From: Quercus robur
Lineage: Eukaryota; Streptophyta; Magnoliopsida; Fagales; Fagaceae
Reading direction: 5' to 3'
Assembly: GCF_932294415.1 (NCBI RefSeq)
Contig: NC_065538.1
Coordinates: 16,139,830 to 16,203,829, forward strand
Length of the DNA: 64,000 nucleotides
Shown here: positions 1,012-64,000 of the stretch, one piece after another
How the letters are laid out: every line of letters starts with the position of its first letter
Position numbering within the stretch: the first letter of the stretch is position 1
Program-made: the position numbers and the translations under genes
Notes under the pieces: model-generated
The model's input: the letters and a program-made list of their open reading frames with translations, nothing else
What the model was told of the DNA's origin: nothing
Database searches by the model: none

Positions 1012-1131
1012 TTAACTTCTCATGGTTAATTGATTTTAATGGAATGATCACATGGACAACTATTCTAACGTTGAAGGTATTAATTACTAACTTAGCTCCA
1101 CATACTAAGTATTATTATTGTAGGAGAACAA

Positions 1132-1849: not shown

Positions 1850-1869
1850 ATAGCCTCTCAAAACTCCGG
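1850..1869 (-). other. Polypurine tract region of element 1
   Basis: On the - strand this reads AGTTTTGAGAGGCTAT directly beside the LTR edge. It is the expected plus-strand primer site and matches the equivalent site at 54255 with one change in the purine run. Confidence 0.55.
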
Positions 1870-2106
1870 TTTTTGATCTCCTTCCGAGGAGAAAAGCGGG
1901 GTTTTGATATTACAAAGAATGAAATTAATTAGCTCCTAATTCACACGTGTGGGGGTAGTTGCTTTTGTCGCGCTACAATTTACGAGGCGCGACTATTTAC
2001 TCCAAGCGGCTTAATGTCTCCCTTATCCAACGGCGAGGCGCAGATCCAACGGCTGACATTCTTTCCAGAATTCTTGAGCGGGAGTGATTTCCTTTTTCCT
2101 CCTAGC

Positions 2107-2114
2107 TATATAAA
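2107..2114 (+). promoter_or_regulatory. TATA box of the antisense extra ORF, element 1
   Basis: TATATAAA lies about 280 bp upstream of the conserved ATG at 2386, outside the LTR. The preceding 190 bp share blocks with the same region of the younger element: CGCGCTACAATTTACGAG, two copies of an ATCCAACGG-like motif, and CTCCTAGCTATATAA. A possible 5'UTR intron runs from a CCC/GTAAGT donor (2297) to a TTAG acceptor directly before the ATG. No RNA evidence is available here. Confidence 0.55.
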
Positions 2115-2385
2115 GCCCTAAAGAGACTCGTTTTTCTTTTTTACTAGCACATAAGAAGTCCAGAGAACTCTAGAGAACTCTAGCGCCCAGAGATTCACGA
2201 ACATTTCCGACCTTCACATTTCTGTAGCCGTTTCTGCGAAGCATCCTTCCTCGAAAAGATTTCCAAGTGTCTTGGTAATTGTTTGTGAGGACACCCGTAA
2301 GTTCTGCTTGCTTCGTTGCTTCAAATTTCTCCTCGGCTCTCAATTTTCATCTCGGTTTTCTTTCCGTCCCTCCAATTTAGCTTAG

Positions 2386-4858
2386 ATGGGTAGATTCAAG
2401 GATCTAGTAGATACCCCGGCTACCATGGAGGCTTTTAGGACAAAATATCATATCCCATCGGGTGTGGTTTTGCAATACTGTCCCCCAGAAGGAATATTAA
2501 CAGATAGAGACGTAGGTCAAGTCGTCATTCCCGTGATTGCTTTTATAGAAGGAGGAATGTCACTTCCCATGCGTAGGATTACCCGGGACTACTTATTCCA
2601 CCATAGGTTGACACCGCATCAGTGCGCTCCAAACATGTTCAGGATATTAGGCAGCATAGATGCCCTGAACGAGCAGATGAGTCTAGGCCTTACTTGGCAT
2701 GATGTGGTTCATCTGTACGAGTGCCACTACGTCGAGAAGGGGGGGTATTATCTTAAATCTCGGTTCGAGATCGTTAGGCTAATCTCTTGCCTCCCCATAT
2801 CCAATAAGACTATGAAGGATGATTTCCTCATTGCCTCAGGAGAGTGGAGCGATGGTTTTCATTGTCCAACTCGGGCAGGAATTCTAGGTGCGGCGCCTCT
2901 AGGGCCAATCCTTTAGGGAGGGGCTTAGCTCTTTAGATTCATTTTCCCTCTTTTTTTTTTTTTTTGCTTAAGAATCAAAAAATTTTATAACCTAACCATA
3001 ATCTCCTCCTCGGCTATTTTGCAGATAGAGCTTAAGTTGCTCCTCGGCTGAGCCACGTGAATGTTCCGGCCTTGAACTATCTTTTGAGGTCAGAAATCTA
3101 CGTGAACAACGACGGGCAACTACGCGCGACTCATCTGGTTTTGGGCTACCAACCCTTATCCCGAGCTTTCCAAGACATTGGCCACGCCATAAGAGCTGGT
3201 AGTCCGAGGTTAGCTAGGATTGACGTGTCCAAGCCCAAGTTTTTGGCCCGACAAGATCTTAAGCTAGTCGTGTTACCTAGCATTCGGAATCCTCCACCAG
3301 TTGTGCAATTGCCTCCACCAGACAACCTTGAAGTTGCTGCGCAAGTTGAAGGAGAGACTGAATCATCTCGTCTTTCCCTTGAGGAGGAGATAGACGAGTT
3401 CTATTTTGAAGAAGAGATTCCCAAAGCTCCTTTGATTGAGCTTTCAGACCCTTAGGGAGAGTAAGATCGAAATTCTGTGGTCGGCGCCCCAATTATTATA
3501 ACCTGCTCGGAAGACTCCTCAGACGACGAGGTAGATAACATGGCTTCCAACAAAGGAAAAAGCCTTCGAGAGTTGATGGCCACCCGAGGCAAGGGTCAAT
3601 CATCAAAGGCGCCAGCTCAGTCCCAGATCCCTATTCTTCCTCCAGTTGCCCCTCAGCCCCCTTTTGATCTCGGCCTTAAGGTTAACCCGGACCTAAAGAA
3701 GAAAAGGCCAGTTGAAACCCCTGAGGAAGGCGAGGTGGTCCCCCGCCCAGGCAAGCAGCAAAAAACCACCTGGGGGCAGAAGAATAAAAGGGCTTCCTCC
3801 GTAGAAAGCCGGGAGGAAGAGAACCGAGTCGAAGTGCGCGTTAATCCGCGCACTTGGAGCCCAAAACTCGAGGTAGACGGGGTCGCCATTCCCTACACTG
3901 CCTCAGTCCGAGAATACAATAGGGGCCGAGCAGGATATATAGCTGAGGCCCTAGAGCAGCCAGTGCTCCTTCCCCGGGACATGGAGGCCTACAAGCGATT
4001 CTCTTAGCCTGAGCTCTTTCTATCCCTCAAGAGGGACCTCACAATGGTAAAATAACTCTTCTAACCTTTCATAAAATCATTAGACATTGTCACATTCTAA
4101 GACATCGTTTTGTTGTTTTGTGGGCAGATTACTTAGCAAGTGTTTGTGGCCGAGGAGTACTGCCACAACAACCACAACTTGGCTAAAGCTGAGGCTCAGT
4201 CTCGTGCCGAGGTGGAGAAATCGATAGGGTCCCTTAAGTAGGAGAATTTTGAACTCTCCGAGAAGTTCAAAGAGTCGAAGAAAGCCCACAAGAGCGCTCT
4301 GGCTGGGCTGAAGAATGCTGAAACCCAAGCCGAGGACTAGCGCCAAAAACTGTACGTGACTGAGACCAACCTTGCCACTGAAAGGCAAACAGTGTTGGAT
4401 CTCAAGGCCGTGTTACAGAAAGCTGAGGAGGAGGTCCGACTGGCTAAAGAAGAGGCTCAGCTAGTCCGGGAAGCAGCCGAGGCTGAAAAGAAGGCTTCTT
4501 ATCAGCTTGGGGCGGAAGAGACTGAAGCCAGGCTCTCTAAGGAGCTTCCAGAGGTATGCAGGGATTACTGCAGCATCTCATGGGCTCATGCCTTTGATAC
4601 TGCAGGGGTTCCTGCAGACTCGGCCTTGAGGTTGCCTGAGAAGGTCTTCTTCCCTCCTAAGATCCGAGAGATCCCTGACGGCGCCCCTGAAGCTTCTGAG
4701 CAGGCCCTGGTTATTCCTGACGCTATCCCTTTACTTAATAAGGCCAAGGATCCTGCCAAGGAATCCGTCTCCGAGGGTCTTGGGGTAGATTCCCAAACCA
4801 AAAAGAGGTTCCTCCTCCTCAGCCAGAGCATAAAAAGAATCCTCCTGCTGAGGCTTAG
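2386..4858 (+). pseudogene. Broken antisense extra ORF of Tat element 1 (Transposase_28-like)
   Basis: This is the decayed homologue of the intact gene at 54798-57247. Exon 1 (2386-2887) is open and begins MGRF. The donor AG/GTGCGG, the acceptor at 3024, the second donor (ATG/GTAAAA at 4046) and the acceptor at 4127 are all at matching places. Exon 2 has a TAA at 3033-3035 and more stops near 3455 and before the GAPII segment. Exon 3 has CAG-to-TAG style stops (for example ITxQ just after the splice) and a frameshift near 4800 that replaces the usual C-terminus. The recognisable parts are the N-terminal domain, an acidic linker with a KKKRPVETPEEGEV basic patch, and a coiled-coil tail ending in CRDYCSISWAHAFD. 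It does not encode a full product. Confidence 0.85.
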
Positions 4859-5180
4859 CTTCTAGGGTTTTTATTACTGTATTTTTTTTTAGAACGGGAG
4901 TTGTCTTATTTTTGTTTTTTTGTAAAGACTTCCCTTTGTATTGATCTCGGCTTATTAATATAGAATGATCTTTTTTCCATTTCTCTTTTGATATTTATGA
5001 CTCATGTTGATATAATTTCATTATTTTGTTCAAAGTTAAAATTGTTCCTCTAGTTAATGCTCGCAACAATATACACAAATATAAACGAACGAGAAAAGGC
5101 AGTGCCGTGCGGTGAACTTAGAACAATAGATGCAATTATACTAAACTACAAACGTACCTTAAAATCACACAGGAGTTCTA

Positions 5181-5423
5181 AGTTATTAATTTCCCCTAAG
5201 TCTGTGGTCCGAGGAGCCATGCAGGACTTAGGTTCTGTTTAAAACTTGGATAGATGCCATAAGTTATTAATTTCCCCTAAGTCTGTGGTCCGAAGAGCCA
5301 TGCAGGACTTAGGTTCTGTTTAAAACTTGTATAGATGCCCCAAGTTATTAATTTCCCCTAAGTCTGTGGTCCGAAGAGCCATGCAGGACTTAGGTTCTAT
5401 TTAAAACTTGGATAGATGGAAAT
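5181..5423 (+). repeat. Three 81-bp tandem repeats between extra ORF and pol (element 1)
   Basis: GTCTGTGGTCCGAGGAGCC-like cores start at 5200, 5281 and 5362, a constant 81-bp period. Each unit also carries TTCCCCTAA and GACTTAGGTTCTGTTTAAAACTT. The same unit, expanded to six copies, sits at the same place in the younger element. Confidence 0.9.
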
Positions 5424-5477
5424 GGACCAATGGGTGTGCGATGATTATGAAACAAAACGTAGACAGAGCTGTTTTTA

Positions 5478-7712
5478 TTAAAAATAATATCTTCTTAAAT
5501 TATTTACATTCCAAGGGCGAGGTACAGTTTTTTCATCTAAGTCTTCTAGGTAATAAACACCTATTCCGGCCACAGATGTGATGCGATATGGTCCTTCCCA
5601 GTTGAGTCCCAGCTTGCCCCAGGAAGGGTTCTTAGCGCTGTCGAGAATCTTCCTCATCACGAGGTCGCCTGGACTCAAAGGTCGCAGCTTTACATTAACA
5701 TCATATCCCTGCTTTAGCTTCTAGTGATAACAGGCCATATGGATCATCGTTTTTTCCCTTTTTTCCTCAGCTAAGTCTAGACTTCTCCTCAGTAACTCGT
5801 CGTTGTTTTTTGGGGTAAAAGTGCTAGACTTCAATGTGGGGAAGCTGTTCTCGATTGGAAGTACGGCTTCGGTCCCATAAGTCATTGAAAAAGGAGTTTC
5901 GCCCGTTGACCGTCGCGGCGTCGTTCGATAGGTCCATAAAACATGGGGGAGCTCTTCCACCCATCTCCCCTTTGCATCATTCAACCTCTTTTTCAGCTCG
6001 CTCACTATGACCTTGTTCACGGCCTCGACTTGCCCGTTTCCTTGGGGGTATGCAGGAGTGGAATATCGGTTTGTGATCCCAAAGTCGCAGCAGTATTCCC
6101 TGAAGTTTTTACTATCAAACTGAAGACCGTTGTCCGAGATGAGGGTATGAAGAGTTCCGAAACGCGTAATAATGTTTTTTCAAATGAATTTCTTGGCATC
6201 CACGTCCCTGATGTTGGCCAAAGGTTCAGCCTCTACCCATTTGGTGAAATAATCAATGCCGACTATTATGTACCGCTTATTCCCTGCTGCTTTAGGGAAA
6301 TGGCCGACAATATCAAGACCCCATTGAGCAAACGGCCAGGAGTTGGAGAGGGGGTTAAGGACTCCCCCCGGTTGGTGGATGTTTGGGGCAAATCTTTGGC
6401 ATTGATCACACTTCTTTGCATATTCTTGGGCCTCTCTCTGCATGTTCGGCCACTAGTACCCTTGGATGAGTGCCCTATGCGCCAGCGATCTTCCTCCTGT
6501 GTGACTTCCACAAATCCCCTCATGCAGTTCTTTGAGCAAGGACTCGGATTCCTCTGGGTGTATACATAATAGGTATGGGCCAGAATATGAACACCGGTAT
6601 AGCTTGTGGTCCTCCGACAACTAGAACCGAGGAGCATTCCTCCGTATCTTCTCAGCCTCCAGTTTTCCTTCTGGTAATGTATCGTCTCTGAGGAAGTTCA
6701 TTATAGGATCCATCCAGCTGGGATTCTTTCTAATCTGATGGATCCGAGCTGTGTCTCTCCCGGCTGAACTTGTCTAGCATAAATCCTCAACAAGGATCAT
6801 TCGTGGTAGCTCATGTGCAGAGGACGTGGCAAGAGTGGCCAGGGAATTCGCATGTGTGTTCCCACTTCTAGAGACATGTGTCAGGTTAAAGGATTCAAAG
6901 TTTGACTGCAGGCGTTTGACTTGACCGAGATACTCTTGCATTCTAGCATCTCTAGCTTCTAACTCACCCATCACTTGGCCAACGACCAATTTGGAGTCCG
7001 AGAACGCTTCCATTGCCTTTCCGCCCAATTTTTGAACCATTGTCATTCCTTGAAGCAAGGCCTCGTACTCGGCTTCGTTGTTCGTAGCTGAGAACCCGAG
7101 TCTTATTGATTTTTCAATGGTAATACTTTCGGGCGATATCAGAACTAGCCTGATCCCAGATCCTTTTTGGTTGGCCGCGCCATCCACGTAGGCCTTCCAA
7201 CGCGAGGTTTCTTGAGCCGAGATTGTGCCAACCGATTTTCCATCCATGTTTTCCTTTGGTGTTACTGTTTCCACAGAAGGCTCAGCGAATTCTGCAACTA
7301 GATCCGCGAGGACTTGACCCTTTACAGAGGACCTAGGCATGTATTTAATGTCAAAAGCGCCCAAGAGTGCGCTCCACATGGCGATTCTTCCCATGTAATC
7401 GGCACTTTGTAACACCGATCGAAGGGGAAGCTGGGTTAGAACAATGACCGTGTGTGCCTGAAAGTAATGAGGGAGTTTTCGCGTGGCATGCACTACCGCC
7501 AAAATTGCTTTCTCCAATGGTAAGTAGCGCACTTCAGCCTCATGTAATGATTTACTTACGTAATACACTGGTCGCTGTATTCCATTATCATCCCGTATCA
7601 GTACCAGGCTGACAGCATGAAGGGCTACTGCTATGTATGCGAACAGTACCTCGTCCGCCTCAGGGCTAGACATGATGGGTGGTCGCGACAAGTATTCTTT
7701 GAGTTGCTGGAA
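5478..7712 (-). pseudogene. Tat element 1 pol remnant (RNase H, integrase)
   Basis: On the - strand from about 7712 the frame gives the end of the RT-linked RNase H and then an archaeal-type RNase H (YVDGAANQKGSG, NNEAEYEALLQG, FSDSKLVV). Integrase segments follow (KCDQCQRFAPNIHQPGG, GLDIVGHFPKAAGNKRYI), then the C-terminal WKNP-like tail ending in NNLRRYYF. A stop after LVEDLC (6774), shifts through 6640-6450, a stop after AKKFI and a stop after ACYH break the frame. The order matches the younger element exactly. The part upstream of RNase H has been lost. Confidence 0.9.
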
Positions 7713-10700
7713 AGCCAGGACATAATCAATAGTTTGTAAAAATATTGTAAAATAGTTTGTAACTGTAGCATTACTCAAATTATAATAATACAAAAAATAA
7801 TGATAATAATGACGAGAGCTTTTAATGAGAGTTGTAGTCATTAGTTACGTGAATTGTTCTTCTTGGAATTGACCCCCCTAGTTTTTTTTTACCTTGAAAC
7901 TAGATTGTTTTATTGGTTTTTTAGATTAATCATATCTTTATCTTATTTATTTTTCCGTTGTAAGATATGTGTGATGAATGTTTAACCTAAATTTACATAA
8001 TTGACTTAAGTATCAACTTGGCAATAAAATTAGGTTAAACATTGTGTGTTTGGGGTCTAAAAACTTACAGTATTATCCATACTCGCTGGCTTGGTCATGA
8101 AAACGACATGATATTATGCCTAATTTGCTGAAAGAAATAAAAATAAAGTGATATGTTAGTATAAGACACCAAACTTTTAGCATTTTTTTCTCCTTCTATT
8201 TCCATAGTATACCATTGACAACTATCTTTTTTAGCATCAATCACACAGCAATATACTAACTTAACAGTTGTGAAATTTTTTTTTTTTTAAAGAATTGTGA
8301 ATCTTTTTGGTAAGAATATCGAACATGTAGCAACTTCTAGGCCATGGGTTCCAGCTAATATGTGCAACTCTATGCCGTGGATTATTAGGAGAGGAAAGAA
8401 ATGTACACTATATACTAGCAAGAAACAGCTAGCATGAAAATGACCTTACGTTTTACATGTGTCAAAATAGATATTATATTCAGAGAGTCACAGTTTCATT
8501 CACACCCATATATTGCCATCTCTTTGTTTCTCAAACACGCACACATACATGCAAATGCAAGTACTTCCGCAGCAACTTTGTCTGCAGATCTCTTTACGAA
8601 CTTAAAACCATTAAACCTTGAGCAGGGTATACTTAGTATTTTTTTTTTCTCCCACTGAACAACTTGGTTATAGTTAGTAAGGATCAAAAACAAAAATTCC
8701 ATCCTTTATTATTATTATAATTATAATTAGTGATTTATTTATTTATTAAGATGTAGAAAACTTATACTTTTTCCCATTTTACGCAGTTCAGCTTTTATAC
8801 TATCCATCCACATAAGCTGGAAAAGAATTTACATTTTATTCTTTTGAATATGATCTACTAGACGTGGAGGATTAGTATTAAAAGCTCAGTTAAATGTCTC
8901 TCAATTACTAATAACTAATAAGTTGTCCGTGCGATGCACGGATAATGTTGTAATGTTTTTTGTAAGATGATTTTGAAGAATGATTTACATATATTATAGT
9001 ATAATTGTTAAATAAGTTTGTTAGTATTGAGTTCATCATAAAAACAATAATTATAAATTGCATACACATTAATTATAATTATTCAGTTTAAGTAATGAAC
9101 AATAAAACCATAACTTTGGAATAATTCTGTAGAATAAAAATTGATATAAAATGTGACTTTCTCTTTCTCCTTAATTCTAAAACAAAATACACTTATGAAT
9201 TTCCCACATTAACATCCTAAATACCCATAGTCAATCACGGCCTTTTAAAAACCCCCAAGTCCACAATGTTTGACCTTAACATCAAAATCGTATTTGTAGT
9301 TGTCACTCAATATAAAATGCAAACCCCCTTCCTTGGTTGTAGCCAACTCATACGGGTTAATGTTAGATAGGACAACAATGTTGGAGCTAGATAGATGTCA
9401 TTGAAAGTTTGAAAGTAAATAACATCGTTTTAATCTGTGTGCATTTGATATGGAATGGCATGAAAGGTTATGTATAGGTGTATATAAAGAAGTTTGGTAG
9501 GAATATTTTCAGAAAAAAATTTCCCAAGGTGCTAGTTTCTATGTAAATATTTGGGTAAATGAATGCTTGAAATTCATATCTTCTTATATAAATTTCATAG
9601 GTTTCTCGTGATTCTAAATGAGAAATATAGGGCAATGTGAAAGCAAATATAGATTTAAAACCTAGTAATTTTCAATTGTTTACAATTATATGTCCAATTT
9701 GATTGATCAATTCCCTAAAGAACAAACAATAGAAAAAGGTAAAAAGCTTCAATTTTTATTTCTCAAACTTCCTCATCAGCCAAGCAAAGAAATTAATTAT
9801 TATTTTTTTTTTCTATAGTGAAATCGAAATTTCCATCACAATTGAAGGTACAAAAAAAAAACATACTTGAACCTTACGATCAAATGATAAAACTACAAAC
9901 AAATATATATCTGAAAAATCAAACAATTTAAATATATGAGTAACAAAACTTAGCTAGTAATGAAACAACAAAACTTCAAACAAATATATATATATATATA
10001 TATATATAAAACAAATATATATGTCTAGAAAATCAAAGAATTTGAATTATATGAACAAAAAAAGATAACCTAGCATGAATGATTTTAACGCTGGTTTTCA
10101 TCTCCTATTCCACTAAGCCATAGACACCATTTTTTTTTTTTTCTCAAGTTACTAAGAATGTAGCTAGTTGAAGGACAAAAATTGGAGCTTCTAATCTGTA
10201 AAGAAGTTTGTCCTCATGTCCAACATTTGAAATTAGTGATTTTTATTTTTATTTTTATTAGACATCCAAAAAAATATAAGAAGCAAAAATGAACCCTTTA
10301 GTATAGAGACAATAAGAATTGAGAGACGGGCACTATTGCACAAATGAAACCAAAGACACACACTTCAACAACAATAATAAAATATTTATGTAATTCTAGT
10401 TTCCATAAATGCTTCTCACAATTTGGCATACCATCAGATTAAATACATTAAAATTAAAGCGAAAATAGGCACGATTGAAGCACTTATAGCATCCAAAGAG
10501 AGAAGAAATTATCGAAGCGAGACCAAAAGGGTTGACACACATATTTAGCATGGTAGGAATGATCCACAGCATTGTACTTGTAATTGTGAAGAGCCACTAT
10601 TAAGGCTAAACATGAACAACAGATTTCAGATTAATTGATGTATTTAGTAGAAGCATTTGGATGAGGATGATACCAAATATGATAAAGCAAATCCAAACAT

Positions 10701-50079: not shown

Positions 50080-50376
50080 ATTAGAGTAGTGTTAGTTTCA
50101 CCTAGGTCAACAACTTATTCCACTTTTATGATGTACCAATAAAAATTGGTCATATTAGCATTTGTTAAAAAAGTTGTATACTCCTAGATTTAGCATTAAG
50201 ACAAAACCATAGTTGTTAGGGAGGACACTCTCACATTGTTAGCAGATATGGCCAAAGCTGTTGTTGTTAGGGCTGTAATATGGGTTTTTGATGAGTTGTC
50301 GCGTCAATTCGTATGTCATTTGTAATAAAACTTCTTAGTAGTTTCAGCATTTAAATAATGCCAAAAAAAGTTGGTC
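50080..50376. repeat. Diverged partial copies upstream of the 1.22-kb duplication
   Basis: ATGATGTACCAATAAAAATT, TTGGTCATATTAGCATTTGT and ATAGTTGTTAGGGAGGACAC are degenerate versions of phrases in the large repeat. This points to earlier rounds of local duplication. Confidence 0.6.
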
Positions 50377-51383
50377 ATTAGCATTTGTCATTAATTAGCA
50401 TTTGTCAAAAAAAGTTATACACTACTAAATTTAGTACTAAGACAAAAACATAGTTGTTAGTGAGGACACTTTCACATCGTTAGCAGATGTGGACCAGGCT
50501 ATGGTTGTTAGGGCTATAATATGCATTTTTTGATGAATTGTCACATCAATTCTTAAGTCCTTTGTAATAAAACTTCATAGTAGTTTTAGCATTTGAATTG
50601 GTCATATTAGCATTTGTTAAAAAAATTATATACTCCTAGATTTAGTATTAATACAAAATCATAGTTGTTAGTGAGGAAACTTTCACATCGTTAGCAGGTA
50701 TGGACAAAGATATAGTTATTAGGGTTGTAATATGCTTTTTTTTTTTTTTTTTTAATAAGTCAAAAAAATGGTTAAGGAGGGGTGATCTGTGTGGCTTTCC
50801 TCTCTAAGGGTAGCCATAATAGCTCTTAACTACTCTTGAGCAAGACTTCATTTTCAGGGCGGCGCCACTTTAAGGCCAGGGTGGTCCTGGGACCACCTTG
50901 ACCTGATTTTTTTTATATTATATAATAATTTAAAAAAATTTATTTGTCTACCCTTCAAAAAAAATTTTGAGAACACCCTCAGTTTTTTTTTTTTTTTTTT
51001 TTATGCCAATAAAATTAAATTTTGCTCCATAATTTGTTCTACATTTAGTGGATAAATGATTGCATGGTTGTGTACATTGAAAGAGATGTTGCTTGTAGCA
51101 TTGATAATAAGACTATCATGCAACGATTTCAAAATATGAAAATTTGTAGAAGACACGCAAATACATAAAGTTTACAATTATAGAAGACAATTGTAAACTT
51201 TATGTATTTGCGTGTTTTTTTTTTTTTTTTATTGTTGTTGTTGTCAATATATGAATTTCTCTTTTTATTAGATTATATAATTTATGCTTCTTAAGGAACA
51301 TCTTGAGAAAAATTCCTGAATCCGCCACTATTCATTTTGATGAAGAATAAGGAACACTAGCACGTTACTCATGGGGGAGGGAT

Positions 51384-51448
51384 GAGTTGAACCCAAATCA
51401 CTCCGCATAACAAAGTCTTGTTAACCCAAGACCCCAACCACTAGGCCA
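51384..51448 (-). repeat. tRNA-derived SINE-like promoter (copy 1)
   Basis: On the - strand TGGCCTAGTGG (51448-51438) is a good pol III A box and GGGTTCAACTC (51394-51384) a good B box, spaced about 43 bp apart. The sequence does not fold as an intact tRNA. SINE end points are not defined. Confidence 0.5.
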
Positions 51449-52563
51449 CCAATCGCGTTGGTAGGGTTGGAATACGCTGTAAGTATGGTAAAATGTCTAT
51501 CACATAGGTGTGTATTGATTTTATAAGCTTGTGAATTTATTTTGTTCTTATTTAATTTTGGGAGAATACAATTACAAGACCCTCCCTTTCTTATGATGTA
51601 CCAATTAAAATTGGTCATTAGCATTTGTCAAAAAAAGTTATACACTACTAAATTTAGTATTAAGACAAAAACATAGTTGTTACTGAGGACACTTTCACAT
51701 CGTTAGCAGATGTGGACCAGGCTATGGTTGTTAGGACTATAATATGCATTTTTTGATGAATTGTCACATCAATTCTTAAGTCCTTTGTAATAAAACTTCA
51801 TAGTAGTTTTAGCATTTGAATTGGTCATATTAGCATTTGTTAAAAAAATTATATACTTCTAGATTTAGTATTAATACAAAATCATAGTTGTTAGTGAGGA
51901 AACTTTCACATCGTTAGCAGGTATGGACAAAGATATAGTTATTAGGGTTGTAATATGCTTTTTTTTTTTTTTAATAAGTCAAAAAAATGGTTAAGGAGGG
52001 GTGATCTATGTGGCTTTCCTCTCTAAGGGTAGCCATAATAGCTCTTAACTACTCCTGAGCAAGACTTCATTTTCAGGGGCGGCGCCACTTTAAGGCCAGG
52101 GTGGTCCTGGGACCACCTTGACCTGATTTTTTTTTTATATTATATAATAATTTAAAAAAATTTATTTGTCTACCCTTCAAAAAAAAAATTTTGAGAACAC
52201 CCTCAGTTTTTATTTTTTATTTTTTATGCCAATAAAATTAAATTTTGCTCCATAATTTGTTCTACATTCAGTGGATAAATGATTACATGGTTGTGTATAT
52301 TGAAAGAGATGTTGCTTGTAGCATTGATAATGAGACTATTATATAACGATTTCAAAATATGAAAACTTGTAGAAGACAATTGTAAACTTTATGTATTTGC
52401 GTGTTTTTTTATTGTTGTTGTTGTCAATATATGAATTTCTCTTTTTATTAGATTATATACTTTATGTTTCTTAAGGAACATCCTGAGAAAAATTCCTAGA
52501 GCCGCCACTATTCATTTTGATGAAGAATAAGGAACACTAGCACGTTACTCGTGGGGGAGGGAT

Positions 52564-52628
52564 GAGTTGAACCCAAATCACTCCGAATAACAAAGTCTTG
52601 TTAACCCAAGACCCCAACCACTAGGCCA
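52564..52628 (-). repeat. tRNA-derived SINE-like promoter (copy 2)
   Basis: This is the duplicate of the 51384-51448 segment within the second copy of the 1.22-kb repeat, with both boxes unchanged. Confidence 0.5.
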
Positions 52629-52779
52629 CCAATCGCGTTGGTAGGGTTGGAATACGCTATAAGTATGGTAAAATGTCTATCACATAGGTGTGTATTGATT
52701 TTATAAGCTTGTAAATTTATTTTGCTCTTATTTAATTTTGGGAGAATACAATTACAAGACCCTCCCTTTCTTCTGATTT

Positions 52780-53566: not shown

Positions 53567-54254
53567 TGTGGTTACACGATTTTCCTGGCCCAACTCGTGT
53601 TGATTAGGCCCTGGCCCAAAGCGCAACCCACAATAATTATTTGTAGAGGATGGGTCAAAGAACTTGGCCTCAGTGAACTTGTTCGGTCTTATGCATGGGC
53701 AGTATGATTTGCAAAAGAAAAATAGAAAAACACCAGAATGGATCTTTCTCAAGTCTGATTTTATTTCTTTTTTTGTTTCTGATACAGTTCTCCCGTCCCC
53801 TTCTTTGAGGGACTCCACTACATTATATATTTTTCTTCTTTTCATCCCAGCCTTACACCTGTTAGTCATCCAAGCATCCACTCGAGCACCTGTCCCATCA
53901 GACGCCCTCATCAGACCCTTTGTGAGTTGCAGAGGCAAAGGCGGTACTGTTCAGGAGTCTTTTCCTCATTAATGCGGCCAAGAGGGTGGTTGGGGCGCAA
54001 TTAATGTGGTGGTAGCCTTCCGTGAGATATTTTGAATTTAATTCGTTTTATATGTTGGGAAGACGAGCTGGAATGGCTGGGGCAAGTTTCTCGTCTGGGC
54101 TTCGCGATGTCCGAGGAGGAGTTACTCCTCGGACAGGTTTCCTTGATGCTATTGGGGTTGAATAGCGCTTCATATGAGGCTTTTCGTTGGACAGGACGCT
54201 CCTCGGACGGGCCTGAGCTTGGAATAGCCCATCATTTTTGGGCCGGGCCCCACA
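53567..54254 (-). repeat. 3' LTR of Tat element 2 (688 bp)
   Basis: It starts TGTGGTTACACG and ends GGGCCCCACA on the + strand, giving TGTGG/CCACA inverted ends. Its first 502 bp align without gaps to 63499-64000, with only two substitutions (53859 against 63791, and 53937 against 63869). Confidence 0.95.
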
Positions 54255-54349: not shown

Positions 54350-54520
54350 CGCGTGCGGACCGTTACTTTTGACGCGCTACAATTTACGAGACGTGGCCAT
54401 TAACTTTTGGAGGCGTTATGTTCCCTTCATCCAACGGCTTGGCGTGGATCGAACGGCCATCGTTTCTTCCCGTATTTCTAGGCGGGGGTGATCTTTTCTC
54501 TCTCCTCCCAGCTATATAAG
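54350..54520 (+). promoter_or_regulatory. Internal promoter of the antisense extra gene
   Basis: TATATAAG at 54513-54520 lies between the LTR and the extra gene and points along the + strand. Upstream blocks conserved with element 1 include ACGCGCTACAATTTACGAG, the paired ATCCAACGGC / ATCGAACGGCC motifs and CTCCCAGCTATATAA. Conservation in two diverged copies argues for real promoter function in the antisense direction. Confidence 0.65.
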
Positions 54521-54797
54521 ACGCCAGAGGGGTTCAGTTCCTTCTTTCATCTGCATTTCGCAAACCTCAAAAGACTCCAGAGAACTCCATCGAATCCTAG
54601 AGATATACGAACACATGCGTCCGTTACGCCGCCGTAGCCGTTCTTGTGAAGCGCTTCGTCCAAGAGAGATTCCCAGGCGTCCCCTTGAGCGTTTTGTGAA
54701 GGTACCAGTACATTTCGCCTTTCTCTCCGTTTCAATTCCCTCCTCGGACTCTACTTTTCTTTTCAGTCTTTACTTTCATTTCCTCAGTTCAGTTCAG

Positions 54798-57247
54798 ATG
54801 GGTAGATTCGAAAAATTAGTAAAAACTCCTGCCGCTATGGAAGCCTTTAGGGCTAAATACCACATTCCCCCGAGGGTTGGGCTGCGGCACTGTCCTCTTG
54901 AAGGAATATTGACCGATAGAGTTGAGGGAGAAGTCGTTATCCCCATGATTGCTTTCATAGAGGGAGGGATGACACTTCCCATGCGCAGGATCACAAGGGA
55001 ATACCTGTTCAACCATAGGTTGACGCCGTATCAGTGTGCCCTAAATATGTTCAAGATACTAGGCTGTGTAGATGTCTTAAACGAGCGGATGAATCTAGGC
55101 CTCACTTGGCACGATATGGCTTATTTGTACGAATGCCACCGCCTCGGGGATGATGGGTATTATCTTAAATCCCGGAACGAGGACGTTAGGTTGATCTCTT
55201 GTCTTCCAGTTTCCAATAAGACCGTGAAGAATGACTTCCTCATTGCTTCTGGGGAGTGGTTCGACGGTATTCACTGTCCAACTCGGGCAGGAAACCCAGG
55301 TGCGGCGCTTTTAGGATTGATCCTTTTTGGGGAAAGGATTTAGTGTTGAGGGGTTATTTTTTCTGGCTTTCTTTGTAATTGGAAAATTTCATGATCTGAC
55401 CTCACTTTTCTTGGTTTGTTTGCAGACAAAAGTCACGTTGCTCCTCGGATAAGACTTGTGAACGTGCCAGCGCTGAACTATCTTCTCAGGTCGGAGATTT
55501 ACGTTACCGGGGACGGACAGTTGCGTGCGGCCCATCTGGTTTTGGGCTATCAACCTCTGAGCAGCGCTTTCCAGGCAATCGGTCACGCTATAAGGGCTGG
55601 CAGCCCGAGGCTAGCCAGAATTGACGTGTCCCGGGACGGATTCCTAGCTGACCACGATTTGCCACCAGTTGTGTTGCCAGGTGTCAGAAATCCCTACTTA
55701 GCGGAGCAGTTACCTCCGGTAAACGAGCCTGGTGCTGCTGTTTTGGTTGAAGAAGAGGCTGAATCATCTCGTCTTTCCCTTGAAGAGGAGATAGATAAGT
55801 TTTACTTCGAGGAGGAAATTCAGCAAAACCCCTTGGTGGAGTCTTCTAATCCCGAAGTAGAGCAGGACCAACATTCCGCAGTTGGTGTTCCCTCAATCGT
55901 TATCTGCTCGGACGATACTTCAGACGAAGAGGTAGAGCCCATGGCAGGAAAGGGAAAGTCTCTAAAGGAGCTGATGACCTCTCGGGGGAAAGGTCAGTCA
56001 TCAAAGGTTCAGCCATCGAAGGGACCAAGTCTATCAAAGGTCAAAACCCTTCCCCCTGTGGTCCCCCAGGGCGTCTCGGACCCTGGCCTTAAGGTTATCC
56101 CGGACCTGAAGAAGAAGAGGCCGGTGGACACGCCTGAGGAAGGCGAGGTGGCTGTCCAGCCGACCAAGCAGCAGAAAACCACACGGGCGCCAAGGAGCAG
56201 AAGGGGCACCTCCTTGGACAGCAGGGATGAGGGGAACCTTGCTGAAGTGCGCACTTCCCCTCGTCCATGGGACCCAAAGTTGGAGCTGGATGGGCTCGCC
56301 ATTCCTTACACTGCTTCGGTCCGAGAGTATAATCGTGGCCGGGCAGGGTACGTGGCGGAGGCCTTAGAGCAGCCCCTACTTCTTCCTCGGGACATGGAGG
56401 CCTACAGGCGGTGCACTCAGTCCGAGCTCTTCCTATCCCTTAAAAGGGATCTCGCGCTGGTAAGTAATCCTTTTACTGCTTTGTCCATTTACTTGCTCCT
56501 GTTAGATTATATATTTTTCTTTTAAGGACACTCTTGTTTTGTCTGCAGATTACTCAGCAGGTCTTCGTGGCTGAGGAGTTTTGCCGTAATAGCCGCAATC
56601 TGGCTGAGGCTGAGACCCAGGCTCGGACAGAGGTGGAGAAAGCCTTGGGGTCCCTCAAGCATGATCACATTAAACTCACGGCTGAGTTCAAGGATTCGGA
56701 GAACCGACGTAAAAGTGCAGAGGCTGGCTTGAAGAGTGCCGAGGATCAGGCGGAGGACCAGCGCAAACAACTGTACACGGCTCAGCTTAATCTTAACACC
56801 GAGAGGCAGGCAGTGCAGGACCTCAAAAATGCCCTGCAAAAAGTAGAGGATGAGCTGAGGCGGGTAAAGGAGGATGCTCAGCTGATCCGAGAGGCAATAG
56901 AGGCCGAGAAGGAGGCCGCTCGACAGCTTGGGGCCGAAGAGACGGAGGCCAGGTTATCTGAGGAGATTCCCGAGGTATGCAGGGATTACTGCAGTATTTC
57001 ATGGGCTCATGCTTTTGATGCTGTAGGAGTTCCTGCGAATTCGGCACTAAGACTGCCCGAGAGCATCTTCTATCCTCCGGAGATCCGAGCTAACCCTGAT
57101 GAAGCCCAAGTCGCTTCGGAGCAAGACCTGGCGGTGCCTGATGCCGTCCTTGTGCCTGATGTGGCTAAGGATCCTGCCACAGACTCTACCATTGAGGTTC
57201 CTCCTCCTCAGCCCGAGCAGAAAGAAGATTCTCCCGCTAAGGCTTAG
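54798..57247 (+). CDS. Antisense extra gene of Tat element 2, three exons, 744 residues
   Basis: Exons 54798-55299, 55426-56459 and 56549-57247 join in frame (introns AG/GT...CAG/AC and CTG/GTAAGT...CAG/AT) into 744 residues without a stop. Exon 1 carries a domain like Pfam Transposase_28 (IAFIEGGMTLPMRRITREYL, then CALNMFKILG and GYYLKSRNEDVRLISCLPVS). Exon 2 has an acidic linker (SRLSLEEEIDKFYFEEE), a basic patch (DLKKKRPVDTPEEGEV) that could be a nuclear signal, and SVREYNRGRAGYVAEALEQP. Exon 3 is a long charged coiled coil, then CRDYCSISWAHAFDAVGVP. The MGRF start is chosen because it is conserved at 2386 in element 1. An upstream in-frame ATG (54615) lies in the leader, and a possible 5'UTR intron ends right at this ATG. 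Such ORFs are known in Tat elements; the function is unknown. It is not a proven transposase. Confidence 0.85.
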
Positions 57248-57539
57248 CCCCCCCCTTTTTTTTTTTTTTTTTTTTTTAATGAGAGTTGTCTTGTTTTTTC
57301 ATTCTTTTGTAAGGACCTCTCCTTTTAATGTACTCGGAATATTAATATAAAATGTTCGTTTTGCTTACTAAGAATGTATGTCAATAGCGTTCTTTTTTAA
57401 ACATTTGCAACGAGGTAGATACAGGCAAACGGTCAAAATGAAAATGGGTTTTTGGGTTGCTCATTTGAGGGTCGCGATGGTGCTAGACTGTGCGCATGTA
57501 TTAAAAGTGATTTCCTTTAAGTAATGATCTCCCAATCTA

Positions 57540-58030
57540 TCACAAGTAATAATCTCCCCAAAAGTCTGTGGTCCGAGGAGCCAGGCAAGACTTAGGTTCT
57601 GCTTAAAACTATGACTTGTCATGAGTAATAATTTCCCCTAGAGTCTGTGGTCCGAGGAGCCATGCAGGACTTAGGTTCTGTTTAAAACTATGAGCTGTCA
57701 TGAGTAATAACTTCCCCAAAAGTCTGTGGTCCGAGGAGCCATGCAGGACTTTGGTTTTGTTTAAAACTTATAAATAGTTGGCTTAAGTAACAATTTCCCC
57801 CAAGTCTGTGGTCCGAGGAGCCATGCAGGACTTGGGTTCTGTTTAAAACTTATAAATAATCGGCTTAAGTATTAATTTCCCCCAAGTCTGTGGTCCGAGG
57901 AGCCATGCAGGACTTGGGTTCTGTTTAAAACTTATAAATAATCGGCTTAAGTATTAATTTCCCCCAAGTCTGTGGTCCGAGGAGCCATGCAGGACTTGGG
58001 TTCTGTTTAAAACTTATAAATAATTGTAAT
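57540..58030 (+). repeat. Six tandem repeats of 79-82 bp between extra gene and pol
   Basis: GTCTGTGGTCCGAGGAGCC cores begin at 57564, 57643, 57722, 57804, 57886 and 57968 (periods 79, 79, 82, 82, 82). The last three units are almost identical, so expansion is recent. Element 1 has three 81-bp units of the same family here. Confidence 0.95.
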
Positions 58031-58086: not shown

Positions 58087-60138
58087 TTAATAATAATAAT
58101 ACCTCCTGAGGTTATTTACATTCCATGGTCGAGGTACAGCTTTTTCATCCAAATCTTCTAGGTAGTAGGTGCCTATTCCGGCCACGGATGTGACACGGTA
58201 TGGTCCCTCCCAATTGGGCCCCAACTTGCCCCAAGAGGGGTTCTTTGCGCTGCCAAGAATCTTCCTCATCACGAGATCACCTGGACCCAGAGGCCGCAGT
58301 TTGACGTTAGCATCATACCCTTGTCTTAGCTTCTGGTGATAATAGGCCATGTGAATCGCGGCCTTCTCCCTCCTTTCCTCGGCTAGGTCCAGACTTCCTC
58401 CTAGCAACTCATCGTTATCGCTTGGGGTAAATGAGCTAGACCTCAACGTGGGGAAATTGTTCTCGATCGGAAGCACAGCCTCAGCCCCGTAAGTCATTGA
58501 GAAGGGGGTCTCACCGGTGGAACGCCGCGGCGTTGTCCGATAGGTCCATAAGACGTGCGGTAGTTCTTCTACCCATCTCCCCTTTGACTCATCCAATCTT
58601 TTCTTCAATCCGTTCACTATGACCTTGTTTACGGCCTCGACTTGCCCATTTCCTTGGGGGTATGCGGGGGTGGAATATCGATTGATGATCCCAAACTCAC
58701 GGCAATACTCCCTAAAATTCTTGCTGTCAAACTGAAGACCATTGTCGGAAATGAGTGTTCTCAGAGTTCCGAAGCGGGTGATAATGTTCTTCCAGATGAA
58801 TTTCTGGGCGTCCACGTCCCTGATGTTGGCCAAAGGCTCAGCCCCCACCCATTTAGTGAAGTAATCGGTTCTGACTATTATGTATCGCTTGTTCCCCGCA
58901 GCTTTGGGGAAAGGTCCGACAATATCAAGACCCCATTGCGCGAACGGCCATGGACTGGAGAGTGGGTTGAGAACCCCTCCGGGTTGGTGGATATTTGGGG
59001 CGAATCTTTGGCACTGATCGCACTTCTTAGCGTATTCCTGGGCTTGTCTCTGCATGTTCGGCCACCAGTATCCTTGGGTGAGTGCCCTGTGCGCCAGCGA
59101 TCTTCCTCCGGTGTGACTTCCACAAACTCCCTCATGCAACTCTTCAAGAAGAGACTCGGACTCCTCTGGATGTACGCAGAGCAGGTACGGTCCAGAGTAG
59201 GAGCGCCGATAAAGTTTGCGGTCCTCTGATAGCCAAAAACGAGGAGCATTTCTACGTATCTTCTCGGCTTCTAGTCTTTCTTCCGGTAGGATCTCATCTT
59301 GGAGGAAATTCCTCAGGGGGTCCATCCAACTGGGGCTCTGTCTTATCTGATGGACTTGGGTCGGGTTTCCACTGATGGGACTGGCCTTAACTAGATCTTC
59401 GACTAGGATCACTCGTGGCAAATTACGTGCCGAGGACGTGGCAAGAGTGGCCAGCGAGTCTGCATGAGTGTTTACGCTCCTGGAGATGTGCGTTAAACTG
59501 AAGGATTCAAAGCTCTCCTGTAGCCGTTTGACTTGTCCCAGATACTCTTGCATCCTAGTATCTCGAGCTTCCAGCTCTCCCATCACTTGTCCGACCACTA
59601 ATCTGGAGTCCGAGAAGGCTTCTATTACTCTTCCACCCAACCTTTGAACCATTGCCATTCCTTGAAGTAAGGCTTCGTATTCGGCTTCATTGTTCGTAGC
59701 CGAGAATCCGAGTCTTAATGATTTTTCAATGACAGCGCCGTCTGGCGATATTAAAACTATCCCAACTCCTGATCCTCTCTGGTTGGCCGCGCCATCCACG
59801 TAGACCTTCCAATGCATGGTTTCCCCGGCCGAAATCGCGCCGACCAGTTTTCCGCACAGGTCTTTCTTCTCGGTCACCGTTTCTATAGAGGGCTCAGCGA
59901 ACTCTGCTACCAAGTCCGCGAGGACCTGTCCTTTGACGGAGGGTCTGGGCATATATTTAATATCAAAAGCCCCCAGAAGAGCACTCCACATGGCGATCCT
60001 TCCTGTGTAGTCAGCACTTCGAAGCACGGCTCGAAGTGGAAGCTGAGTCAGGACGATGACCGTGTGCGCCTGAAAGTAATGAGGAAGCTTCCGGGTTGCA
60101 TGCACTATCGCCAAAATTGCCTTCTCTAAGGGTAGGTA
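58087..60138 (-). pseudogene. Tat element 2 archaeal-type RNase H and integrase (3' part of pol)
   Basis: This 675-codon open part of the polyprotein follows a TGA at 60139-60141 (HEAEV-stop-YLPLEKA, where element 1 has Arg). It starts with the end of the RT-linked RNase H. A second, archaeal-type RNase H follows (VYVDGAANQRGSGVG, NNEAEYEALLQG, FSDSRLVVGQVMGELEARD, NTHADSLATLA). Integrase comes last: an HHCC finger (HTGGRS...KKCDQCQRFA), a catalytic core with D (GLDIVGPFPKA), D (LISDNGLQFDS) and E (GNGQVEAVNKVI), and a C-terminal tail (SWGKLGPNWEGPYRVTSVAG) ending NNLRRYYYY. These domains would integrate cDNA. All catalytic acids are present; only the upstream stop separates this part from RT. 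Confidence 0.9.
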
Positions 60139-61404
60139 TCACACCTCGGCTTCATGTAGTGACTTGCTCACATAGTACACCGGTCGCTGCACCCCATTAT
60201 CATCCCGTATTAATACCAGGCTTACGGCGTGGGGAGCTACGGCGATGTAGGCAAACAACACCTCGTCTGCCTCCGGACTGGACATGATGGGTGGTCGGGA
60301 CAGGTAGTCCTTAAGCTGCTGGAAAGCCTGAACGCAATCCTCCGACCATTTAAACTCTTTCCACTTGTTTATCAGGAGGTAAAAAGGCCGACATCGATCC
60401 GCCGATCGTGATATGAACCGGCTTAATGCCGCAATCATGCTAGTGAGCTTCTGCACTTCCTTCGGGTTCCGAGGAGTCTGTAGACTGTTAATGGCTTTGA
60501 TTTGGTCAGGACTTACTTCTATTCCTCTATGGGTGACCATGTACCCTAGGAATTTCCCAGACCCGACCCCGAATGAACATTTGGAGGCATTCAGCCGCAA
60601 CCGGTGCTCCCTTAAGATAGCGAAGACTGTTCCAAGGTCTTGCACGTGCTCGGACACCCTTTTACTCTTCACAATCATATCGTCTATATACACCTCAATG
60701 ATCTTGCCCAGTTGCGGCTCGAACATCCGAGTCATCATCCTTTGGTAGGTTGAGCCCGCGTTCTTTAGCCCGAATGGCATCACCTTATAATGATAATTTC
60801 CGATGGGCGTCATGAAAGCCGTTTTCTCTTGGTCCTCTAGCGCAAGGGGTATCTGATGATAGCCCTGGAAGGCGTCCAGGAAGCTCATTCGAGGGTGTCC
60901 CACGGTAGCATCCACCAATCGATCAATTTTGGGTAGGGGGAATGGGTCCTTGGGGCACGCCTTGTTCAGGTCCGTGAAGTCCACGCAGACCCTCCACTTC
61001 CCCGTCTTTTTCCTTACCACCACTGTGTTCGCCAACCATTCAGGATAAAAGACCTCTTTGATAGCTCCTGCTCTTTTCAACTTGGCCACTTCGTCTCTCA
61101 CGGCACCAGCGTGTTCCTTTGAAGGACGTCGGGGTGGTTGCTTCCTCGGAGTGGAAGAGGGGTTGACGTTCAGGTGGTGACAGATGAGGCTGGGATCAAC
61201 TCCAGGGGCATCGTAGGCGTCCCAAGCGAATACGTCGACATTTTCTCTGAGAAATCTGACCAGTTCCTCCTTTTCCTGAGAGGGCAATTCAGAGCCGACC
61301 TGAAAGAACTTCTCCGGGTCATTGCTGACAGCAACCTTATCTAAACCTTCACACCTTATCTCCTCGGCCAGCTTCTCGTCTTGCTTTGCCGAGGAGGCTG
61401 GTTG
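60139..61404 (-). pseudogene. Tat element 2 reverse transcriptase and first RNase H
   Basis: An open frame runs from after the TAG at 61405-61407 to the TGA at 60139. Motifs appear in order: ELVRFLRENVDVFAWDAYDA, WLANTVVVRKKTGKWRVCVD, FTDLNKACPKDPFPLPKID, FLDAFQGYHQIPL, MPFGLKNAGSTYQRMM, YIDDMIVKSK (catalytic box), SKCSFGVGSGKFLGYMV. The degenerate gypsy RNase H follows (LLINKWKEFKWSEDCVQAF, LVLIRDDNGVQRPVYYVSKS). It would copy the element RNA into cDNA. The domain itself has no break, but the flanking stops cut it from protease and integrase. Any ATG start inside is unlikely to be natural, because the frame is part of a polyprotein. Confidence 0.9.
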
Positions 61405-62265
61405 CTACAAGCTCTTTGGGGCCGAGGACTCGACCAAGGGCCGATGTAAAATGGCGGCCACCACACACTTCCTGGCCACGGCCTGATCTCCTCGGATCTC
61501 TTCCACTCGTCCTCTGGATGGGTATTTCACTTTCTGGTGAAGTGTGGAGGTCACGGCCTCTAGGCTGTGGATCCATGGCCTTGCAACTATCGCGGTGTAG
61601 GGTGAATAAGCGTCGACCACGATGAAATTCACCTCCACCACTTCCGCCCCAGTCTGTACGGGCAGTCGGATTTGCCCCTTTGGTGTAACGAGCTTCCCCT
61701 CGAAGCTGAGGAGGGGGGAGTCATAAGCTGTCAAATCTTCCGGCTTCAAATTCAGCCCCTTGTATAGGTCGGGGTACATTATCTCCACCGCACTTCCAGA
61801 GTCTACTAATACCCTTTTCACATCGAAACCCCCCATCCGCAAGGTGACCACCAAGGCGTCATCGTGAGGTTGAATTGTTCCTCTCTTATCCTCATCCGAG
61901 AATCCCAGTATCAAAGAGCTTCCCTTTTTTATCCTTTTGGGCTCCCTTTGCCTGCCTTCGGAGGGAAGGCGGTCCACGGCTAACACCCTGGGGATGGGTG
62001 GCCCAGTTCTTCCTGGTGCAGCGAGGATGACATGTATCGTCCCGGTGGGGGGTCTTAAAGACACGTCCCTTCGAGGTTCTTGTGTTGCCTGGCCGGGATG
62101 GCCGCTCGATGGGTGCAGCAGGTGACGTAGCTTTCCTTCTTGGACCAATTGATCCAGGTGATTCCACAAATTCCTGCAATCCTCAGTAGTATGCCCGTGG
62201 TCCTGATGATATTGGCAATATAAGTTCTGATTACGATTAGCAGGATTTCCAGCCATCTTTCCCGG
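61405..62265 (-). pseudogene. Tat element 2 zinc knuckle and aspartic protease region
   Basis: It is in the same frame as gag, separated by a TAG at 62266-62268 (PYFR-stop-PGKMAGNP). It starts with a CX3HX4HX4C knuckle (CQYHQDHGHTTEDC) typical of Tat Gag. The protease has the active site in VLVDSGSAVEIMY (D-S-G), the flap-side FEGKLVTPKGQIRLPV and NFIVVDAYSPYTAIVARPWI. The frame ends at TAG (61405-61407), after which the same frame reads on into RT. The stop context TAG CAA CCA matches the UAG-CAR-YYA readthrough signal. Confidence 0.88.
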
Positions 62266-63445
62266 CTATCTGAAATAGGGTTCATCCCTTACTTTCTCCA
62301 GTACTTGTTGTACCGGCTCTCTGAATACGGCATTCACAATTTGCGGGTTGCTCTGCCCAGCCTGTCGCGGAAAATCTCTCCTCGGCTGACCAGGATTGTG
62401 ACGTTCCGTCCTGAAATCATTTGCTTTAGGGGGGACAACCTTCTCCTTCCCCTTCCCTTGCAGCTGATCCTCCTCCACCCTTTTGTACTTGTCAATCCTA
62501 TCCATTAGCTGTTGGACGTCGGTAACTGGCTTTCCGGTGAGGGATTTCCTCAAGCCATGCCAGGTAGGGAGGCCGCTTTTGAACGTGCTGATAGCAACGT
62601 TATCATGGTTGTCGTCTAAATCGTTATACACCTCCCAATACCTATCCGAGTATGCTTTCAGAGTTTCCCCTTCATGCATGGACAAGGACAGTAGCGAACT
62701 GAGCGGTCGAGGGACTCGGGTGTTTGTAATAAAACGGGAGCAAAAAGCTTGAGTGAGCTGCTTGTAGGAGCCTACTGAGTTTGTCCTCAGGCTGTTGAAC
62801 CACCTCATTGCCATCGATCCCAAGCTGGACGGGAAGATCTTGCACATTAGGGCTTCGTTTTGCGAATAGATCGCCATTTTCTGGTTGAACTGACTCACGT
62901 GCTCTACCGGGTCTGTTCTGCCGGTATAGATGACGAATACCGGTTGGTTGAAGCGTCTTGGCAGCTTAGCCCCTTCGATTTTACTCGTGAAGGGTGACCT
63001 TGAGATCTGATCCAACGCCTTCTTCATGGCATCGCTCCCCGAACCTTTGCTGGATGGGCTCTCATACTTCCGTACTGGGCGTGGTTCCTTTACGTAAGAA
63101 AAGGTCTCGCTTGGGGGGGGTCCTTGACCTTCGTCTGTAACTCGTGTCCTCCGCATTAGAAGACTCGCCTGAGTCAGAGGGAGATTGTCTTCGCTGTACA
63201 CGTCGTAGCTTCCTTTTTAGGTCATCTATCTCTCGCTGCATGGCCTGGTGACTATTTCGCCTTTGAGACACGTGACTTCCTATCTCAGTGTGACTCTGGC
63301 TCGTCCGGGTGGTATGCACACTCCCCTCACGATTCCCCCTGCCGCCTGGGTTGGTTGGGTTATTTTGCCTTTGGGACTCGGCGGGTTGTGTTCGTTGGGA
63401 GTTAGCTTGGTGAGGATCTTCCTGGTGTGGATCTAGTTCTTCCAT
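62266..63445 (-). pseudogene. Tat element 2 gag, one frameshift
   Basis: The ATG at 63445 (MEELDPHQED) lies about 35 bases after the primer site. The N-terminal part is basic and repeat-poor (DDLKRKLRRVQRRQSPS). At 63113-63120 a G8 run (C8 on the coding strand) shifts the frame. With seven, RRRSRTPP would run on as SETFSYVKEP. The second part has the retrotransposon Gag domain (GRTDPVEHVSQFNQKMAIYS, MCKIFPSSLGSMAMRWFNSL, RFITNTRVPRPLSSLLSLSM, EGETLKAYSDRYWEVYND). It ends at TAG 62266-62268, in frame with the protease region. Gag would form the capsid-like particle. Confidence 0.9.
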
Positions 63446-63498: not shown

Positions 63499-64000
63499 TG
63501 TGGTTACACGATTTTCCTGGCCCAACTCGTGTTGATTAGGCCCTGGCCCAAAGCGCAACCCACAATAATTATTTGTAGAGGATGGGTCAAAGAACTTGGC
63601 CTCAGTGAACTTGTTCGGTCTTATGCATGGGCAGTATGATTTGCAAAAGAAAAATAGAAAAACACCAGAATGGATCTTTCTCAAGTCTGATTTTATTTCT
63701 TTTTTTGTTTCTGATACAGTTCTCCCGTCCCCTTCTTTGAGGGACTCCACTACATTATATATTTTTCTTCTTTTCATCCCAGCCTTACACTTGTTAGTCA
63801 TCCAAGCATCCACTCGAGCACCTGTCCCATCAGACGCCCTCATCAGACCCTTTGTGAGTTGCAGAGGCCAAGGCGGTACTGTTCAGGAGTCTTTTCCTCA
63901 TTAATGCGGCCAAGAGGGTGGTTGGGGCGCAATTAATGTGGTGGTAGCCTTCCGTGAGATATTTTGAATTTAATTCGTTTTATATGTTGGGAAGACGAGC
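63499..64000 (-). repeat. 5' LTR of Tat element 2, truncated by the window
   Basis: It is the counterpart of 53567-54068 at a constant offset of 9,932 bp with two substitutions and no gaps. About 186 bp are expected beyond the window. Confidence 0.95.

Follow-up and report, generated by a model that had tools for sequence, protein, structure and literature searches.

The window analyzed here, a 64,000-nucleotide stretch of the Quercus robur genome, contains a Tat-type LTR retrotransposon which, between pol and its 3' LTR, carries a gene on the strand opposite to gag-pol with three coding exons, two GT-AG introns and 744 codons plus a stop. Comparison with its relatives supports its reading as a protein-coding gene that has introns, runs antisense and keeps a TATA box located outside the LTR. 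At a probability of roughly 0.6, we take it to be a three-exon protein-coding accessory gene of a Tat/Retand-type element that works in the manner proposed in the last section. The gene is of a known kind, namely the antisense aORF-3R/TRP28 of Retand/Tat elements, and the conserved introns of such antisense genes seem not to have been described. The argument is carried by the anatomy of the locus, by the constraint on the protein and on the splice sites, and by a domain and intron phases common to other families, all of which can be read from the DNA itself.

Anatomy of the element and its antisense gene

The element spans 53567-64186 (10,620 bp) with its sense strand on the minus strand, the last 186 bases lying outside the window and being taken from the genome sequence. 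Its LTRs, the 3' copy at 53567-54254 and the 5' copy from 63499 to 64000 and past the window end to 64186 (both minus strand), are 688 bp long and differ at 3 of 688 aligned columns; the 5-bp target duplication AACAA precedes the former and follows the latter, as befits the young element that the earlier note had claimed. The open pieces of gag-pol (58090-63216, minus strand) match the Pfam families RVT_1, RT_RNaseH_2, RVT_3, H2C2 and rve in pol, where a match to RT_RNaseH falls one bit short of its cut-off, and Retrotrans_gag in gag. This set comprises RT, RNase H and integrase in the order of the Tat-type Ty3/gypsy elements and, in RVT_3, the second RNase H that we take to be their mark. The coding region is broken four times, again as had been claimed: by three in-frame stops, whose first bases lie at 62268, 61407 and 60141 on the minus strand, and by a frame change in gag, a region that in the window copy is split between two overlapping frames; a single open frame of 402-403 codons spans it in 7 of the 14 copies in which the gag region is nearly complete. 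A tandem array with a period of 82 and 5.9 copies (57544-58021) separates the antisense gene from pol. This layout and the LTR and internal sizes fit the Retand ranges in the portions of the survey by Vicient 2025 (PMC11963269) used here, and an antisense ORF of at least 600 bp between pol and the 3' LTR, the Retand antisense layout, is present. Just outside the element, at 50126-52777, there is a 1.2-kb direct duplication, 95–97% alike, with shorter repeats within it.

The antisense gene lies on the plus strand. A TATATAA box at 54513-54519, outside the LTR by about 260 bp and kept in other copies, is followed by an ATG at 54798 that opens the coding part of exon 1 (54798-55299), which encodes the TRP28-like domain. 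Intron 1 (55300-55425; 126 bp, phase 1, donor GTGCGG, acceptor TTTGCAG) leads to exon 2 (55426-56459), which encodes an acidic stretch at about residues 249–310 and a basic KKKR at residue 396, and intron 2 (56460-56548; 89 bp, phase 0, donor GTAAGT, acceptor TCTGCAG) to exon 3 (56549-57247), whose product is heptad-rich and coiled-coil-like around residues 587–640 and which ends in a TAG stop. The coordinates, the exons, the GT-AG introns, the 744 codons and the place of the TATA box all reproduce the spliced-type gene described in the earlier note. Read unspliced, the frame from exon 1 ends at 55343, at a stop inside intron 1; on the element-sense strand within the gene there is one other frame of at least 120 residues (143 residues, at 56522-56953).

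The same window holds a related element, older and truncated, at about 1120-7716, consisting of a 3' LTR, an antisense gene, a tandem array and the end of pol; its similarity to the young element stops within pol, at about 7716. Its antisense gene (2386-4858, plus strand) has the TATA box, the ATG and GT-AG at 4/4 splice sites in common with the gene at 54798-57247. Upstream of the coding part, a candidate extra 5' leader intron may lie within 54698-54797, where a GT aligns with a GTAAGT in the older counterpart; both copies also have pyrimidine-rich sequence that runs up to an AG immediately before the ATG.

Conservation of the introns in near and distant copies

The genome (785.7 Mb, 42 contigs) yielded 5291 first-look candidates for exon 1, the best 150 of which were scored by exon 1 protein similarity; 25 copies were drawn from those 150, five for odd frame lengths and 20 at steps through rows 2–70. 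The ATG and the TAG stop are kept in 25/25 copies each and the TATA box in 24/25. Both donors are kept in 25/25 copies, the acceptor of intron 1 in 24/25 and that of intron 2 in 25/25, so that the GT-AG dinucleotides are intact in 99 of 100 cases, and 199 of 200 of their letters are the same as in the window copy. The interior of intron 2 matches the window copy at 1243 of 1675 positions (74%), and its contrast with the splice letters makes this intron the clear case. The interior of intron 1 matches at 2425/2600 (93%), and its divergence among the copies (0.059) is no faster than that of exon 2 (0.064). Intron 1 is thus less clear from close copies, and its probable status as an intron is drawn from the older copy, where identity to the young one is 64% and 59% in the introns as against 70–77% in the exons, and from other families.

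Two observations on individual copies may be added. Intron 2 exists in two versions: in copies L009-L012 its first 49 bases are 82–86% alike to those of the window copy and the remainder is unlike, which has the look of a partial replacement with the acceptor retained. The first of these copies, L009 (C5:63353406), has an 848-residue open frame and was considered as a processed, intronless copy; this was rejected since intron 1 is kept in it and is open in frame (6283-6405), which lets an unspliced reading run from exon 1 to exon 2. A pattern search of the genomic DNA with up to 3 mismatches found spliced junctions 1 and 2 at 0 and 0 places; unspliced junction 1 was recovered 329 times as a control, and the figure for junction 2 comes without a matching one. 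This absence is neutral with respect to splicing.

Exon 1 provides the link to more distant families. The Transposase_28 model, PF04195, gives no match to the window copy protein, which does not reach the membership threshold of 26.2 bits and deviates from its relatives at one conserved TRP28 position. Exon 1 of the older copy scores 23.3 bits (E 7.5e-5), below that cut-off, and 2 of the 26 exon 1 proteins match at E 0.01 or better. A genome search with PF04195 gave 4149 candidates, and the best 150 of the 4149, those that were scored, are all above the cut-off. One such locus, L034 (E 1.6e-11), is in antisense orientation to a pol of Tat type (L036), and its protein is 50% identical to that of a second locus, L035. 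No DNA match was found between the coding regions of these two and the window gene; the exon 1 profile of the window family aligns with them at an hhalign probability of 92% (E 5.5e-7, 144 columns, 24% identity). The earlier proposal relating exon 1 to Transposase_28 therefore fails as a direct match of the window copy and stands as a profile link to a PF04195-positive family, by homology to which the window gene can be regarded as TRP28-like.

The resemblance extends to gene structure. With splice sites chosen by eye and by open frame, L034 and L035 can be joined as four exons. The domain is directly followed by a phase-1 intron with a GTGCG donor, and the heptad-rich last exon is preceded by a phase-0 intron, both being features of the window gene as well; between these two introns lies an extra phase-1 intron. 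As exons 2 and 3 have no significant profile similarity to the exons of L034/L035, it is the domain, together with the phases, donor and order, on which the case for a common structure depends. Two further loci, L038 and L039, have the same donor; their proteins look like that of L035 (judged without an identity figure), and for this reason they give no independent support. Behind its antisense gene, L034 has a short tandem array (2565-2831) with a repeated peptide in one frame. As for other possible relatives, a match of exon 1 to Fn1_2 (E 4e-4, under the cut-off, in 23/26 members) was set aside as probably spurious; a structure model of exon 1, built on two sequences of the window, had a mean pLDDT of 39 and was not taken on to a fold search; a PDB sequence search gave no relative, two matches at E 0.65 and 0.78 being disregarded; and a scan of IMG/VR with exon 2 gave none.

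These patterns bear on the best-surviving alternative, an improbable one nevertheless, that there are no introns and that two or three separate antisense proteins are made, as ORF-based surveys would present them. PMC11963269, in the portions used, lists ORFs of at least 600 bp and puts the antisense ones at 104 across 63 clusters, reporting also 11 Smc-type matches and regional tandem repeats; the separate ORFs are open in the window copy too, and both the exon-like conservation of intron 1 and its open frame in L009 would suit such a reading. It does not account for the near-invariance of the splice letters, for their conservation in the older copy despite the divergence of the introns themselves, or for the agreement of intron phases in the divergent L034/L035 families, all of which argue for a spliced gene.

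Selection on the encoded protein

One measure of constraint comes from the comparison of the older and the young antisense genes. Once codons with gaps or stops (8 and 7 of 744) were removed, NG86 gave a dN/dS of 0.162 (bootstrap 0.12–0.21; dN 0.197, dS 1.21, the latter being near saturation). The other two frames of the same pair, serving as off-frame controls, gave 0.90 and 1.53, and a 683-codon piece of pol gave 0.067 (0.047–0.090). Differences fall at 43% of third codon positions as against 22% and 17% of the other two. Relative to the window copy, the older gene carries an insertion of 32 bases as well as 7 stops and two gaps that shift the frame; a neutral simulation at 28% divergence led to an expectation of 22 stops, with 14 as the lowest.

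Across the 26 sequences (325 pairs), dN/dS is 0.247 for exon 2 and 0.232 for exon 3, in copies picked by exon 1; the value for exon 1 itself (0.106) was set aside because similarity in exon 1 had guided the choice of copies. The pol pieces gave 0.112, 0.102 and 0.188. As an excess of transitions lowers NG86 ratios, the neutral simulation was run with the noncoding spectrum: it gave 0.68 at 6% divergence (sd 0.12, lowest 0.42) and 0.58 at 28% (sd 0.06, lowest 0.45), with 60 runs each. Arranged by rising synonymous distance, the ratio for exons 2 and 3 falls from 0.54 (5 pairs) through 0.34 (10), 0.31 (22) and 0.245 (91) to 0.239 (197). The high ratio in the closest copies and the value of about 0.24 in distant ones point to a protein kept in replicating lineages and decaying after insertion; such a fall would be expected if selection acted on the gene while its lineage was replicating and ceased once a copy had inserted. 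The earlier note had named a dN/dS near 1 across copies as the outcome that would speak against it; the ratios, about 0.24 for exons 2–3 and 0.16 for the older copy, lie well below 1.

Its further suggestion, that the gene is selectively retained within copies in which gag-pol decays, was not borne out. In the 25 other copies the antisense gene has 14 breaks, that is 0.25 per kb (0.30 without exon 1), and the three pol pieces, covered in 23, 21 and 20 copies, have 17, 9 and 12 breaks (0.36, 0.34 and 0.70 per kb); the gene's rate is lower, but not clearly so in copies chosen by exon 1 similarity, and for its length it is broken with about the same frequency as pol. No stop or frameshift is seen in 15/25 copies, among which one has a long in-frame deletion, one a broken acceptor and one no TATA box; the copy with the deletion (L022, 590 residues) was left out of the exon comparison. 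In the window element, the probability that all four breaks would miss the gene by chance (about 5.4 kb plus 2.2 kb of target) is about 0.25, so that the contrast of a broken gag-pol with an intact gene is weak by itself.

This pattern of selection helps weigh two further readings. It is unlikely, to nearly the same degree as the absence of introns, that the functional product is the antisense RNA, controlling the element by way of double-stranded or small RNA, instead of a protein. Such an antisense transcript would pair with the genomic RNA, and the possibility has been raised for transcripts of this type in the portions of the review PMC7264820 used here; the constraint on the window gene tracks the codon frame, as the excess of third-position differences indicates, which would be needless for an RNA role. 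The RNA and protein roles could coexist. Already disfavored, and less probable still, is the reading of the gene as a passenger, a leftover frame intact only through the youth of the element. The near-identical LTRs, the break rate close to that of pol and the ratio of 0.54 between the closest copies would be expected of it, but not the ratio of 0.16 against a copy differing by 23–30% in its exons, the few stops for that divergence, or the low dN/dS of exons 2–3 across distant copies.

Known systems, proposed mode of action and meaning

That Tat elements carry extra antisense ORFs, as the earlier note had stated, is established (PMC11963269, PMC7264820). Within the portions of PMC11963269 drawn on, antisense TRP28 ORFs occur in 97% of the Retand clusters (61/63) over flowering plants, and these resemble the window gene in orientation, in their place between pol and the 3' LTR and in the TRP28 domain, as well as in coiled-coil or 'Smc'-type matches, regional tandem repeats and LTR and internal sizes. 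The survey gives its ORFs apart, whereas the window presents one gene model that joins the pieces and, in this copy, lies below PF04195 detection. The maize Grande gene23, for which the review PMC7264820 gives, in the part used, an own promoter and a nuclear product, is likewise an accessory gene that runs antisense in the stretch from pol to the 3' LTR; it is likened to the window gene by layout and promoter description, not by sequence, and features of its type are seen in the window gene at the sequence level in the TATA box (24/25 copies) and the KKKR. The antisense ORFs of PvRetro13 (ORF2, with an SMC domain), RIRE2 and Silene Retand occupy the same place (PMC7264820, same portions), and the SMC-like coiled-coil part described as an ORF in PvRetro13 ORF2 corresponds here to the last exon of a TRP28-like gene. 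In a word search of PMC11963269, 'intron' was absent and 'splic' occurred only in a reference title; the literature searched gave no description of introns in antisense Tat/Retand genes, with an earlier mention in the original gene papers being possible, and the parts of the 2020 review used (PMC7264820) ask for a look at spliced antisense transcripts. The recent capture of a host gene by the element, the least likely of the alternatives and a very improbable one, would suit the introns usual in host genes but sits poorly with the same gene position in L034 (where it adjoins a Tat pol) and in the older copy and, as far as the portions of PMC11963269 go, with the spread of TRP28 over flowering plants and no relative reported outside mobile elements, though an ancient capture is possible.

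The favored reading, an intron-bearing accessory gene of the element, can be outlined as follows. After integration, RNA polymerase II would start at the internal TATA box near 54513 and head away from the 3' LTR, and the two introns would be spliced out of the antisense transcript, giving a 744-residue protein with an N-terminal TRP28-like domain, an acidic stretch, a basic nuclear-signal-like stretch and a C-terminal coiled coil. We infer such transcription and splicing of the gene, together with the nuclear site, dimerization and regulatory role of its product, which by analogy with Grande gene23 would most likely act as a dimer in the nucleus to regulate or assist expression or integration of the element itself. 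A parallel in working only, with no claim of homology, might be struck with HBZ of HTLV-1, a bZIP protein made from a spliced antisense transcript, which regulates its retroelement in the nucleus. The start of HBZ lies in the 3' LTR, that of the window gene outside it.

The orientation of the gene follows a simple logic drawn from its anatomy and from what is established about splicing and reverse transcription. In the genomic RNA the introns are present as their reverse complement and so would be unremovable; since the genomic RNA keeps them, an intron-bearing gene would survive copying through RNA only in antisense orientation. It may be, at slightly less than even odds, that the Tat/Retand antisense gene as a whole is one ancient multi-exon gene whose introns outlast the cycles of reverse transcription through its antisense position. 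If so, the conserved introns would offer a simple reason for the invariably antisense orientation of TRP28 genes; ORFs published separately as 'TRP28' and 'SMC' would be exons of one protein; and expression would be limited to integrated DNA, which would make the gene a natural analogue of the intron-marked reporters that score retrotransposition. The conserved exon-intron structure supplies a full protein to express and test and a ground for annotators to join ORFs that are now listed apart. Should most families share the introns, the origin of the gene, from captured DNA and not from a processed mRNA, would become testable by intron position across the flowering plants.
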